Assembly (NCBI RefSeq): GCF_000621805.1
Contig: NZ_JHXH01000004.1
Location: forward strand, 62,001 to 126,000
DNA: 64,000 nt
DNA from: Ruminococcus sp. FC2018
GTDB taxonomy: Bacteria > Bacillota > Clostridia > Oscillospirales > Ruminococcaceae
Direction of reading: 5' to 3'
Part shown: piece after piece, positions 14,365 to 64,000 of the stretch
Position numbering within the stretch: the stretch's first letter is position 1
Layout: the number at the start of each line of letters is the position of its first letter
The notes under the pieces: generated by a model
What the model was told of the DNA's origin: nothing
Seen by the model: the letters and a program-made list of their open reading frames with translations, nothing else
Databases searched by the model: none
Translations under genes and position numbers: made by a program

Positions 14365-14384
14365 GTTCCTTGTTAAAATAATAG

Positions 14385-14485
14385 CCTTATCAAGAGTGGC
14401 GGAGGGACAGGTCCTATGAAGCCCGGCAACCTGGGTATTTATTACACAAGGTGCTAAATCCTGCGGAGTTTTCCGAGAGATGAGG
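14385..14485 (+). promoter_or_regulatory. SAM-I (S-box) riboswitch upstream of metK
   Basis: The S-box signature is clear: CTTATCAAGAGTGGCGGAGG, then GGACAGG, CCTATGAAGCCCGGCAACC, AAGGTGCTAAATCC and the P1 closing strand GATGAGG. Binding of S-adenosylmethionine should favour the terminator at 14504-14530 and lower metK expression, a standard feedback loop. Confidence 0.95.
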
Positions 14486-14503
14486 AAATCATTGGTATTT
14501 CAG

Positions 14504-59750: not shown

Positions 59751-59954
59751 CTAAAAAATAACCGCCTTGCCGTCGCACAGTTGATAAAACCCGCTCTCGC
59801 AGGTGGGTACCAGCCCAATGACTTCTCGCTCCCAGCGTCCGTACATACACGGCACAAAGTCGGCGTATGCCGGGAGGTCTGCAATCCGTTTCTCGGAGAC
59901 CCGGTTCCCTTTTATTTGTGTGTTGGATTTATAATGACCGTGCTTAACGCACAA
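59751..59954 (-). CDS. Possible small protein of 67 residues, unknown
   Basis: An uninterrupted minus-strand frame with four cysteines (CVKHGHYK, FVPCMYGRWE, VPTCESGFYQLC) and balanced composition, followed by a good terminator (59703-59730). The start is unclear: the TTG at 59954 has no ribosome site. A possible extended -10 element, TGGTATTAT, lies about 35 bases upstream. It could be a short gene with an unusual start, the remnant of one, or a small RNA. I do not recognise the product. Confidence 0.35.
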   Translation of the reverse strand: MCVKHGHYKSNTQIKGNRVSEKRIADLPAYADFVPCMYGRWEREVIGLVPTCESGFYQLCDGKAVIF

Positions 59955-60059
59955 GGCAGAAATCTTATTTACTGTTATTATAATACCACATTTTCGTCAA
60001 TTATTCAAGTATGATTTTATACAAATTATTGTACGAATATTTGTACAATAAACCGGTCA

Positions 60060-60401
60060 TCAGCTGAAATGCTTATCGTCTGCGCCCTGAGTCTCTTCCT
60101 CGTCGTCAAAGTCAAACATCTCCTCGATGCGCTTCATGAATATGTCGCCGATGCGCTCATACTCCTCCTCGTCATCTATGGACGCAAGGATCTCATCGTT
60201 GTTTTCATCAAACTCAGATCTTAAAATGACCACCTCTCCTGAGTCATCAAGCATATTCTCAAGGTCATCCTCATCATAATATGGAGTCAGCGCATAGTAT
60301 TTCTCGCCCTCATACTCCATTACATCAAGAAGCTCGAAGCTCTGCTTGTTTCCCTGCTCGTCCTCAAGCTCGTAAAGATCCGGTGTGTATTCTTCATTCA
60401 T
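60060..60401 (-). CDS. DUF1292 (YrzB-like) protein
   Basis: A 113-residue acidic protein of the DUF1292 family (YrzB of Bacillus). The body, LYELEDEQGNKQSFELLDVMEYEGEKYYALTPY and onward, is the family's small beta domain, with long Asp/Glu runs after it. These proteins usually follow ruvX in Firmicutes; here the gene stands alone. The function is unknown. The promoter is 160 bp upstream and its spacer is an 18-bp palindrome; the leader is unusually G-rich. Confidence 0.85.
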   Translation of the reverse strand: MNEEYTPDLYELEDEQGNKQSFELLDVMEYEGEKYYALTPYYDEDDLENMLDDSGEVVILRSEFDENNDEILASIDDEEEYERIGDIFMKRIEEMFDFDDEEETQGADDKHFS

Positions 60402-60559: not shown

Positions 60560-60588
60560 ATTATACTACATCTTATATAAGATGTCAA
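60560..60588 (-). promoter_or_regulatory. Promoter of the DUF1292 gene with an operator-like palindrome
   Basis: On the minus strand: TTGACA, 17 bp, TATAAT. The perfect 18-bp palindrome ACATCTTATATAAGATGT (60568-60585) fills the spacer and touches the -35 box, a classic repressor position. Confidence 0.75.
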
Positions 60589-60647: not shown

Positions 60648-60676
60648 TTGACAAGTAACAAAAAGTGTGCTATATT
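60648..60676 (+). promoter_or_regulatory. Promoter of the large gene-free transcription unit
   Basis: TTGACA (60648-60653), 17 bp, TATATT (60671-60676). The next stable ORF on this strand is beyond the terminator at 62041. Confidence 0.8.
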
Positions 60677-60979
60677 ATGTACAAGAAATCAAAGACCGAA
60701 CAACTCACTTGGAGGTGAGGCTGAACACAGGCGGAAAGAGCGGTGCACCGGCGCAGGCGCACACAGCGTTCGCAGGTGGTTTTGTATAGTAGGCAGATGG
60801 CTGCATACATCCGACCGATGTTTCTGTAGCGAAGCCGAAGACAGACGGTTTGAGATTACTTTGATCGTGAACTATACCGGGTTGAAGTGAACACGCTGCG
60901 AGCTCTTGATGTTATCGGGAGTTATGGATACAGCGAGGAACTCCGTGAAGTTTAATCAGACACGAAAGGAGCGAGTCCC

Positions 60980-61036
60980 ATGGGCGCACTGGATATTAAG
61001 AGTGGTAGCCATAGGCTCGGCGGTTTAGGTAATTAA
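60980..61036 (+). CDS. Possible 18-residue peptide inside the large RNA
   Basis: ATG at 60980, 9 bases after GAAAGGAG, gives MGALDIKSGSHRLGGLGN and a stop. It has the best start context of the short frames in this RNA, but may be part of the repeated RNA motif rather than a gene. Confidence 0.3.
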   Translation: MGALDIKSGSHRLGGLGN

Positions 61037-61332
61037 GAGGATCGGGACACGGACGTAAGAGCCGTCAGATCAAAATTCAATGATTTACATAAGACTTTAC
61101 CGCCTTGCCTGATGGAACACGAACTAATTTCAGACCTTCAAAGCAAGGCTGCCATATTTTACAACTGAATATTTACGGCTTGGATGCCAAATTGACGTAA
61201 CGTTTTTATTATATTGGAATGGAGTTGTTTCCCATGCACGATTTTGATTATTTTGACGAGAAAGAAATATGATGAAAGAGTGATTCCGGTGTAATATGTA
61301 TTTTAGCTTGTAATATCTCGTATATATGTTTT

Positions 61333-61532
61333 AGGAGTGATGCACTATGAAAATAGTTTGCACAAGGTTCTTGAACATCTGAAATTAAGGAGTGAGTCCG
61401 CCAAGACATTTACGAGTTTGAAGCTCTTTTTAAAAGAATTCTGAACTATTTTTACAGACGGGAGTGGTGCACTATGAAAATGCTGTGCACAAAGTGTTTG
61501 AATATTTGACAGACAGGAGTGAGACCGCCAGA
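61333..61532 (+). repeat. Direct repeat of a 73-nt unit within the large RNA
   Basis: Units 61333-61405 and 61460-61532 are about 75 percent identical and 127 nt apart. Each has GGAGTG, a TGCAC...GTGCAC or TGCA...TGCA hairpin around ATGAAAAT, TTGAA, a TGA and GGAGTGAG-CCGCCA. Both could encode an 11-residue peptide (MKIVCTRFLNI and MKMLCTKCLNI). Confidence 0.75.
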
Positions 61533-62040
61533 AAGTTCAGTTTTTAAGCTTTAGTTGAAAGCTTTACTTGATTTGATATCATTCTATCCGAAAGGAAATT
61601 AAACCAATGGCTTGATTAAACGCATTTTACAATGCACGTACTTAAATTATTACTTTTACCATGTCCGCAGATCTCATATTTCCATAGGTAATAAATCCGG
61701 CAGGTCGGTGTTTTTTCGACAGCCCGGACCTTTTCGGAGATTGATCCGAGAGAAATAGCTGATTTCTGTCGACGAAATTCTATGAAGGGCGTGAGTCCAA
61801 AGTACAATTTATGATTTCAATTTGACTTTACGATAATTAACCGAAAGGTGTGAGTCCGAAATTCTGTTTTAAATGAATGATGTGAACAGCGTTTGTTCAC
61901 TCACAGGACGTTTAATTCTACGAAAGGTGTAAAGTCCAATGGCTTAATTTGATTTCAAACCAATTATTCTTTTTGATTGGAGTGAGTTGCGATGTGCTAA
62001 CCAATTTTAGTACATATGCATTTAGATAGTTGAAATATAC

Positions 62041-62070
62041 AGAGAGCAGCGTTTTTGCTGCTCTCTTTTG
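62041..62070 (+). terminator. Terminator of the large gene-free unit
   Basis: Stem AGAGAGCAGC / GCTGCTCTCT with a 6-nt T-rich loop, then TTTTG. Confidence 0.9.
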
Positions 62071-62133: not shown

Positions 62134-63102
62134 TCATATCTTGTTTTCAAGAAATGCTACCGTTTTTTCATCGTACCTCAGATCCTGAGCAGCCATGTTT
62201 TCTTCTATCTGCCACGGTCTGGAAGCCGCAAACACAGAGGTTACAAAAAACGGCTGGCTGGAAAGATATCCAAAGGGTATTACTGCCGGAGATGCGCCGG
62301 TCCTTGCACTGAGTTCCTTTACCCTGGCAAGCCTTGCAAGGTTTGCAGTGCTTGCATACTGACCCTCCGGGAGATACTGGGCAGCGTCGCCCTTGGCAAG
62401 CTTTGAAAAGAAGCCCTTAGCCTGCGGTGAAAACGCCATAAGCGGAAATTTGTTCTCGCTGTACCAGCGAAACTCCCTTGTGTCCATGCAAACAAGTGTG
62501 GGATCGCCCAGAATACTGCTGCTTGCGTGTGCAAGGCTGTAATAGATCTGACTTATCCTGATCGGCTCCATGCCGTTTTTTGCTGCAAAATCATTTGCCG
62601 CCTGTATCCTCTGGCATGACCAGTTTGATACGCCGATAAAGTGCGCCTTTCCGCTTTGGTATATATCATTGAGCACAGGCATTATCTCCTCAACAGGGAC
62701 CTTTGTATCGTCACGGTGCAGGAAAAATATATCCACATGATCTGTGCCAAGACATTCAAGGCTGTCATTTATGTCCTTTTCAAGGTCTTCCCTGCTCAGT
62801 CGGTTCTCGTCCATGTGTCCCATGGCAGGGTGACCGCCCTTTGTCGCCAGAACTATTTTATCACGGTTATTGCGTGCCTTTATCCACCGCCCGATAACTC
62901 CCTCGCTTGAATTATGACCGTCCTCCAGCCAGTCGCAGTAGACCCTTGCGGTATCTATAAACCAACCACCGCAGGAGCAATATGTATCCAGAAGCTCAAA
63001 ATACACATCGTCATTGTCGTGGCGCATGAAATCACTTGTGCCAAAAGTGAGCGAAGGCAGCTCTATCTGGTATTTTTCGTTTTTCAGCGTGTAGCTTATC
63101 AT
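62134..63102 (-). CDS. Aldo/keto reductase
   Basis: A 322-residue NADPH-dependent oxidoreductase with a (beta-alpha)8 barrel. Catalytic residues are in FIDTARVYCDW (Asp and Tyr), ATKGGHP (Lys) and FFLHRDDTKVPVEE (His). GKAHFIGVSNWSCQRIQ is the family signature and ASTANLARLARVKELSARTGASPAVIPFGYL the cofactor region. The substrate is unknown; similar proteins are often annotated near sugar metabolism. The ATG at 63102 is chosen because AAGGGGGAG precedes it; an ATG three codons earlier overlaps that site. Confidence 0.92.
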   Translation of the reverse strand: MISYTLKNEKYQIELPSLTFGTSDFMRHDNDDVYFELLDTYCSCGGWFIDTARVYCDWLEDGHNSSEGVIGRWIKARNNRDKIVLATKGGHPAMGHMDENRLSREDLEKDINDSLECLGTDHVDIFFLHRDDTKVPVEEIMPVLNDIYQSGKAHFIGVSNWSCQRIQAANDFAAKNGMEPIRISQIYYSLAHASSSILGDPTLVCMDTREFRWYSENKFPLMAFSPQAKGFFSKLAKGDAAQYLPEGQYASTANLARLARVKELSARTGASPAVIPFGYLSSQPFFVTSVFAASRPWQIEENMAAQDLRYDEKTVAFLENKI

Positions 63103-63267
63103 ATTACACATCTCCCCCTTATATAATTCAATCAACTACAAGAAAAGTATATCATAAATTTTACGCCAATTTCAAAATTTTTTGTTAAATTATTCACAAC
63201 ATATTGGTACAACAAATATATGCTTTTAATCAACAGCATATGATTTTTTAGCAACGGAGGTTTTATC

Positions 63268-63601: not shown

Positions 63602-63630
63602 TTGACAAGTAAGTTTACTTGATATATAAT
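63602..63630 (+). promoter_or_regulatory. Promoter of ylxM
   Basis: TTGACA (63602-63607), 17 bp, TATAAT (63625-63630). AAGTAA-GT-TTACTT (63607-63620) forms a small palindrome in the spacer. Confidence 0.85.
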
Positions 63631-63684: not shown

Positions 63685-64000
63685 TTGAGCAAGAATTTAG
63701 GAATGTGTCAGCTTCTTGATCTGTATGGCGGTCTGCTTACCGAGAAACAGCGTGACATAATGGATATGTACTATAACGATGATTTTTCACTTGGCGAGAT
63801 CGCAGACCATTACGATATTTCCCGCCAGGGTGTCCACGATGCGATCAAGCGGGGTGATGAAGCCCTTGAGGAATACGAAAGCAAGCTGGGACTGCTGGAC
63901 GCAGACAACGCTCACAAGCAGGAAATACTTGAATACAAAAAGCTTGCGCTGGATGCATTCAACGAGTGTAATGCCCATCGCTCCTTCCGCTCGGTAGCCG
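63685..64000 (+). CDS. ylxM: YlxM family signal-recognition-particle-associated protein, 3' end cut
   Basis: The first 105 residues are visible. The helix-turn-helix core EKQRDIMDMYYNDDFSLGEIADHYDISRQGVHDAIKRGDEAL is the YlxM (UPF0122) signature. YlxM is encoded next to ffh in Firmicutes and modulates the signal recognition particle GTPase, so ffh is expected just past base 64000. The start is TTG at 63685, 10 bases after AAGGAG; the next in-frame ATG is at 63703 and lacks a ribosome site. The usual length is about 110-120 residues, so little is missing. Confidence 0.92.
   Translation, partial: MSKNLGMCQLLDLYGGLLTEKQRDIMDMYYNDDFSLGEIADHYDISRQGVHDAIKRGDEALEEYESKLGLLDADNAHKQEILEYKKLALDAFNECNAHRSFRSVA

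Follow-up and report, generated by a model that had tools for sequence, protein, structure and literature searches.

Which kind of RNA, if any, is made from a stretch of DNA that is enclosed by a promoter and a terminator and harbours no conventional gene? This question is raised by positions 60648-62066 of the window, i.e. the 64,000 nucleotides of Ruminococcus sp. FC2018 that were analysed. An earlier note on this DNA had proposed a large, ornate non-coding RNA. The comparison of homologous copies points to a tandem array of ribosome-binding sites, each followed by a very short reading frame.

A gene-free unit between promoter and terminator

The promoter with its perfect spacing and the strong intrinsic terminator, both described in the earlier note, were recovered (Table 1). 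The aldo/keto-reductase gene behind the terminator is located on the minus strand and is therefore convergent with the unit, which is thus not a leader, as had been stated before. The promoter scan as a whole yielded 12 promoter-like sites in 4.5 kb in comparison to 9.4 in shuffled sequences, and the weight of the promoter call therefore rests on its conservation: TTGACA-17-TATANT with a preceding TG was present in all 32 full-length copies, with 1 to 12 mismatches to the 39-nt consensus. These copies have a length of 959-1813 nt and comprise the window, 24 others of the genus and seven from other records (L041, L044-L049). A terminator-like end was detected in 30 of them by the terminator scan; for L039 and L042 the end was placed by eye. 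From promoter and terminator, we infer that the unit is transcribed.

Two additional promoters with a 12/12 match were noticed. One (60560-60588, minus strand) faces the DUF1292 gene and stands back to back with the array promoter; the other (63602-63630, plus strand) lies upstream of a frame near 63697, which by its look is presumably YlxM-like. Furthermore, the window contains a SAM riboswitch at 14384-14486 (plus strand, 84.8 bits).

Table 1. Positions of the array unit's elements and of its neighbours in the window
Feature	Position	Strand	Basis or remark
6S RNA, same strand as the DUF1292 gene and downstream of it	59755-59965	-	RF00013, 61.4 bits
DUF1292 protein gene, divergent from the array, syntenic partner	60060-60401	-	PF06949, E=9e-18
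Sigma-70-type promoter TTGACA-17-TATATT, extended -10 TG	60648-60676	+	match 11/12
Micro-ORF 1, 18 codons, MGALDIKSGSHRLGGLGN-stop	60980-61036	+	SD GAAAGGAGCGAGTCC at 60964-60978, dG -8.2
Micro-ORF 2, 12 codons, MHDFDYFDEKEI-stop	61234-61272	+	SD-led
SD GAAAGAGTGATTCC with start-stop GTG TAA	61274-61294	+	alignment of close copies
Hairpin-class micro-ORF, 11 codons, MKIVCTRFLNI-stop, start in possible hairpin	61347-61382	+	class-U unit, model R1 match
GTG-started 9-codon frame MSPPRHLRV-stop within GTGAGTCCGCC.. motif	61392-61421	+	candidate start
Hairpin-class micro-ORF, 11 codons, MKMLCTKCLNI-stop	61474-61509	+	second class-U unit, model R1 match
GTG-started frame, 11 codons, stop weakly conserved	61519-61554	+	candidate start
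Two-codon micro-ORF ATG GCT TGA	61607-61615	+	SD GAAAGG at 61590-61595
SD-like site, without start codon in the window and in L031	61687-61708	+	alignment of close copies
Possible GTG-started 7-codon frame MSPKYNL-stop	61791-61814	+	read from sequence
Possible GTG-started 8-codon frame MSPKFCFK-stop	61850-61876	+	read from sequence
Two-codon micro-ORF ATG GCT TAA	61939-61947	+	SD GAAAGG at 61922-61927
Two-codon micro-ORF ATG TGC TAA	61992-62000	+	SD TTGGAGTGAG; L037 reads ATG TGC TGA
Intrinsic terminator stem	62041-62066	+	terminator scan
Aldo/keto-reductase gene	62134-63135	-	behind the terminator of the array unit

The longest ORF starting within the unit comprises 80 aa and overlaps the promoter. 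Neither this ORF nor a second one of 63 aa showed a match to Pfam or another protein family, which upholds the view that a conventional coding ORF is missing; the micro-ORFs are too short for any such match. At gathering threshold the unit matched no Rfam family, and nothing credible appeared up to E=5 (best E 0.026, far below the gathering score of that model), in agreement with the impression that it resembles no recognisable RNA family. Models of OLE, GOLLD, ROOL, raiA and HEARO are included in Rfam 15, and none of these covariance models matched the unit.

OLE, GOLLD and ROOL are large stand-alone bacterial RNAs. The unit shares this build, and its size, its discreteness and its strong conservation would be consistent with a large structured non-coding RNA of this sort, as would the fact that some windows and one of three hairpin units fold better than shuffled sequences. 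On average, however, the fold is little better than that of shuffles: the mean folding z of 150-nt windows ranged from -0.38 to -0.86 across six homologues (single windows from -3.8 to +2.4), and in these windows no extensive stable secondary structure like that of OLE, GOLLD or ROOL was found. When single elements were folded, z values of 0.62 (window), -0.36 and -2.54 resulted for the three hairpin units, -0.01 for one mini site and 0.97 for one GTG site; the hairpin around the ATG is visible by eye and in some, not all, of the folds. Since, in addition, no Rfam family matches, the conservation tracks reading frames and the array is apparently translated, a structured RNA of this kind is highly improbable. 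The term 'ornate' and the likeness to OLE, GOLLD and ROOL therefore had to be given up, as the conserved part is an array of initiation sites with micro-ORFs and not a compact structure.

Ribosome-binding sites and conserved micro-ORFs

The recurring motif GAAAGG-N-GTGAGTCC, to which the earlier note had drawn attention, is real. Allowing at most one mismatch, GGNGTGAGTCC occurs five times in the 64 kb with both strands counted, each time inside the unit, even though the count alone lies within chance (2.6 expected; five reached by 11 of 100 shuffles). Comparison of divergent copies revealed that the motif is a Shine-Dalgarno (SD) stretch with its spacer, followed by an ATG and a near-immediate stop. 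The minimal frame types are ATG GCT TAA (Met-Ala-stop) and ATG TAA.

The 32 full-length copies contain 359 SD-led ATGs (SD of -4 kcal/mol or better, 5-17 nt upstream of the ATG) in comparison to 156±12 in 40 dinucleotide shuffles (maximum 176), and 157 of them are followed by a stop within three codons in comparison to 26 in the shuffles (maximum 38); because the related copies are not independent, these controls overstate the significance. A stop within 20 codons was present for 341 of the 359 SD-led ATGs and for 436 of 577 other ATGs. The lengths of the SD-led frames peak at 2 (101 frames) and 10-11 codons (90 frames), with smaller peaks at 16 and 18. With a looser SD cut-off of -3.3, 200 mini-ORFs of up to four codons, representing 59 different sequences, were counted in 36 copies (the 32 full-length ones and L052-L055); their stops are TAA (118), TGA (41) and TAG (41).

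The window alone possesses seven SD-led ATGs with frames of 18, 12, 11, 11, 2, 2 and 2 codons. When 1200-nt windows of the 64 kb are scored by a generic density of SD-led frames, those with the highest value for a maximum length of 13 codons (six frames) fall in the unit; at a maximum of three codons, the unit scores three and a stretch of ordinary genes near 46.8-48 kb four. A single genome thus gives a modest signal, and it is the comparison among copies that carries the case.

The frames of the window recur in its relatives. A first frame of 16-21 codons, often of the form MD..E..S.., was found in most copies, and a frame starting with MH.. or MY.., the counterpart of micro-ORF 2, in many. 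In L037 the nucleotides of the MH frame are kept and the frame is altered by compensating frame shifts, so that here the nucleotides rather than the peptide seem to be conserved. ATG and GTG interchange at the start-stop site at 61274, where six of eight close copies read ATG TAA and L031 reads GTGGGA... At the SD-like site at 61687, L033-L038 have an ATG-led short frame. The two class-U units of the window share 80% identity. In the best-ordered copies (e.g. L073 and L075), a 10-codon hairpin frame and a Met-Ala-stop frame 137-139 nt later, with a GTG frame between these two ATG frames, make up a module that is repeated up to four or five times.

Evidence for translation was obtained from the hairpin class, whose units were gathered by nucleotide anchors from the 36 copies. 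The 63 5' anchors, three of them without a 3' anchor, gave 55 distinct units from 31 copies. These frames typically have 10-11 codons, start with an ATG in the hairpin and end with ..LNI-stop. In all 55 units the ATG frame closes 0-14 nt ahead of the GTGA..CC motif that follows. A stop in the +1 frame comes earlier in every unit, and 38 units have no stop in the +2 frame ahead of the motif. The distance from ATG to motif is 1 mod 3 in 53 of the 55, across lengths of 9, 10, 11, 12 and 16 codons. All three stop codons are used (TGA 39, TAA 9, TAG 7), the last codon is mostly ATT (29) or ATC (21), and the penultimate one AAT (35), AAC (11) or GAT (3). In these two codons the third positions are the more variable ones, with entropies of 1.09 and 1.42 in comparison to 0.13-0.66 at the first and second positions. 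When 35 units of the 55 were aligned with MAFFT, omitting near-duplicates and the 12- and 16-codon units, gaps measured 3 or 6 nt inside the frame and 1-2 nt outside.

The GTG frames of GTGAGTCC close after eight codons in 30 of the 55 units, after nine in 9 and otherwise in 16, and their SD lies closer to the GTG than a textbook start allows. That GTG is the real start everywhere was rejected: at this place mini sites may read GTGTAA, TTGAG or ATGAG or lack an NTG altogether, which favours ATG as their start. Conservation of the frame at the codon level, as in a translated polycistronic message, was thus found for the hairpin class, with the MH frame of L037 as an exception, and is weaker for the GTG frames. 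Judged from these sequence patterns, the micro-ORFs are very probably translated. The designation 'non-coding' in the earlier note accordingly does not fit, as the recurring motif is a ribosome-binding site leading into tiny conserved frames.

It might be assumed that the unit is a polycistronic message for functional peptides of 10-12 and 16-21 codons (M.M..RLLNI, MD.SES..SI..), with the two-codon frames coupling or insulating translation. This would account for the LNI-like C-terminal end and the N-terminal MD..E, which recur in many copies. However, the peptides are freely variable in their central part and differ even between tandem copies of the same RNA, and many frames specify one or two residues; we therefore regard this explanation as unlikely.

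The context of the mini sites differs from that of ordinary starts. CC at positions -3 and -2 was found in 85% of 139 distinct mini sites in comparison to 1.2% of 82 CDS starts, and GCN as the second codon in 48% in comparison to 15%. Alanine at position 2 is a mark of highly expressed proteins (PMC1397820). The core SD is weaker at the mini sites (-5.85) than at the CDS starts (-8.32). With the full 16S tail GGATCACCTCCTTTCT, taken from the organism's own genome, the mini sites pair at -12.4 kcal/mol in comparison to -9.9 (sd 0.15) after shuffling of the spacer; the effect of the spacer is smaller at CDS starts (-10.65 and -9.66). Folding of a random 150 of 315 sites indicated that, relative to the expectation from base composition, accessibility is slightly reduced for the SD of mini sites (0.42 vs 0.50; 61 sites) and increased for the ATG of the 8-13-codon class (0.61 vs 0.47; 59 sites).

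Because spacer shuffling weakens the pairing of the mini sites with the full tail, a second explanation stays alive: the repeated GGNGUGAGUCC(A/G) could be a base-pairing decoy for the 16S 3' tail (anti-SD) or for an anti-SD-like small RNA, and the start and stop codons would be secondary. The spacer-specific complementarity to GGAUCACCUCCUUUCU, the marked preference for CC and several motif copies without ATG are in line with this. A decoy leaves unexplained, however, the in-frame stops of three kinds, the length changes of 3 nt and the interchange of ATG with GTG and of wobble positions, and is considered unlikely.

Distribution and neighbourhood of the array

By blastn and promoter searches, a homologous stretch extending beyond the promoter was detected in 26 of the 28 other genomes of the genus (24 full-length, two cut by contig ends in G010 and G023). 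The bracketing by promoter and terminator and this recurrence in congeners corroborate the discrete, gene-free unit of the earlier note. No homologue was found in G017 (86% complete) and G025 (80% complete); in G025 a promoter-like match occurs alone.

Array-like promoters without an array (8-11 mismatches over 39 nt) also exist elsewhere in the genus, namely L027/L079 (G025:C2), L080 (G021:C10) and L081-L083. The site in G025 was rejected as an array, as it precedes an ordinary gene pair, by its look presumably of the NfeD/SPFH type, and L080-L083 have at most one or two mini frames on the promoter strand. Opposite the promoter strand, L081 has five short SD-led frames and L082 three. The promoter-only matches L029 and L030 from other families are likewise not accompanied by an array.

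The search for DUF1292 in named genomes yielded 33 loci, and in 21 of these (L031-L051, L046 being from another genus of the family) the opposite strand carries the promoter block at a distance of 144-243 bp upstream of the DUF1292 match. A sequence-only model of the hairpin unit matched in 29 of 148 genomes of the family, representing 25 of 123 genera (E≤0.01, many matches weak). Of 20 such places examined, 15 have a DUF1292 match at all, and in 13, which belong to 12 genera, an array-like stretch adjoins a DUF1292 gene in divergent orientation. Among these 13, L113 and L120 are the already counted loci L046 and L052, and L127 has one SD-led short frame and three motifs, nothing more. The family thus contains at least 12 further genera in which array and divergent DUF1292 gene are neighbours. 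In a sample of 245 genomes of the order, searched with stricter filters, no match but the window's own was obtained at E≤0.001. The taxonomic limit is not sharp, since L054 and L055, which are not assigned to a family, have short forms of about 450-590 nt beside DUF1292. These forms are possibly ancestral or reduced arrays.

Beyond the DUF1292 gene, 6S RNA was identified at gathering threshold in 9 of 16 other loci and below it (E<0.01) in five of the remaining seven, giving 14 of 16; no 6S RNA match was found there in L053 and L124. A phage origin was considered as well, and GAAAGGNGTGAGTCCRATGG was searched in viral contigs. Four stretches were obtained, and because each has merely one or two SD-led short frames within 900 nt, none of them is an array.

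A possible role in ribosome capture

CsrB and RsmZ are stand-alone sponge RNAs in which purine-rich GGA motifs are repeated in tandem. The array shares these features, and a Csr/Rsm-type protein sponge, or one for another GGA-binding protein, would explain its many GGA-containing repeats. In the array, however, the motifs come together with start and stop codons that are in frame. Moreover, CsrA was found in none of the 18 genomes of the genus searched (the organism's own and 17 others), as far as these are complete, and E. coli, B. subtilis and two other genomes of the order gave positive results in the same search. Due to this absence the array is not a Csr sponge in our reading, and the probability of a sponge of the Csr/Rsm type is close to zero; a different protein that binds GGA is conceivable.

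Bacteria keep RNA polymerase in check via 6S RNA and park ribosomes via proteins such as HPF. We know of no RNA that seems designed for loading numerous ribosomes onto frames as short as one to a few codons. 6S RNA shares the locus with the array, and a hypothetical parallel is the occupation of a core machine; 6S RNA is a structured decoy of RNA polymerase, whereas the array is open and apparently translated.

Phage lambda bar is a minigene. Like bar and the two-codon mg2 of axe-txe (for mg2, PMC8708949), the array sites consist of an SD, an AUG, one or a few further codons and a stop, with immediate termination. Known minigenes occur singly or in pairs inside leaders or genes, whereas the array carries many in tandem within its own promoter-to-terminator unit and without a downstream gene. 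Leader-peptide and uORF attenuators (trpL and erm, PMC8708949; uORF motifs, PMC8632094) share short translated frames and, in some cases, starts in a hairpin, but the regulated gene lies downstream on their transcript, whereas the array is followed by a terminator and a convergent gene. Pipelines for structured RNAs do pick up uORFs (PMC8632094, PMC6429828), and the word 'Ruminococcus' does not occur in the main texts of these two papers. Full-text searches of open-licence papers brought up no title or abstract opening in which such an array is described.

According to our proposal, the strong promoter would give rise to an RNA that ends at the terminator, both elements being visible in the sequence. 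In each module an SD and a start codon would lead into a micro-ORF with a length of 1-21 codons, the translation of which is backed by the codon-level conservation. The peptides are probably for the most part not the product, because many frames give fMet-Ala or fMet alone. Each site may capture an initiating 30S or 70S ribosome, which would terminate almost at once and might be recaptured at the next site. Since sites of this kind would capture, release and recapture ribosomes, the RNA could gauge the pool of free ribosomes or act as a sink for it, and might be the translational counterpart of 6S RNA, which is encoded in this locus too and occupies RNA polymerase. We give an even chance to the complete statement, a stand-alone transcript of tandem micro-ORF initiation modules that captures ribosomes; that this capture is the function, in partnership with the neighbouring 6S RNA, is put forward tentatively. 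The link between array and 6S RNA is one of proximity, and instead of ribosome capture the purpose may be a peptide or an antisense partner.

Minigene frames can tie up tRNA as peptidyl-tRNA, minigenes or strong SDs can stabilise RNA in cis, and a strong SD allows re-initiation without the ribosome leaving (all PMC8708949). Given these published effects, and because a one- or two-codon frame is not likely to yield a useful peptide, we favour the sink or gauge. The stabilisation in cis would also agree with another explanation, namely that ribosome occupancy shields the RNA itself, as it does with single minigenes of leaders, and the transcript has an unrelated job, performed by its 5' third or its 3' end. 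However, the relative L055 of roughly 450 nt retains little besides micro-ORFs, and in all but close relatives the conservation of the 5' third is poor; this explanation is distinctly unlikely.

The tandem micro-ORF array RNA may therefore represent a new type of bacterial RNA, one made for engaging ribosomes. It is conceivable, albeit with less than even probability, that it represents a new class, a ribosome trap or gauge with some 5 to 20 tandem sites opposite DUF1292 and next to 6S RNA, in a locus that would provide decoys for both RNA polymerase and the ribosome. If this is true, gut and rumen bacteria would buffer or sense their translation capacity by means of an RNA, conserved two-codon ORFs would become recognised functional elements, and DUF1292 would gain a testable context. 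Furthermore, kilobase-sized 'non-coding' RNAs may be translated and yet be missed when all of their ORFs fall below the annotation cut-offs.
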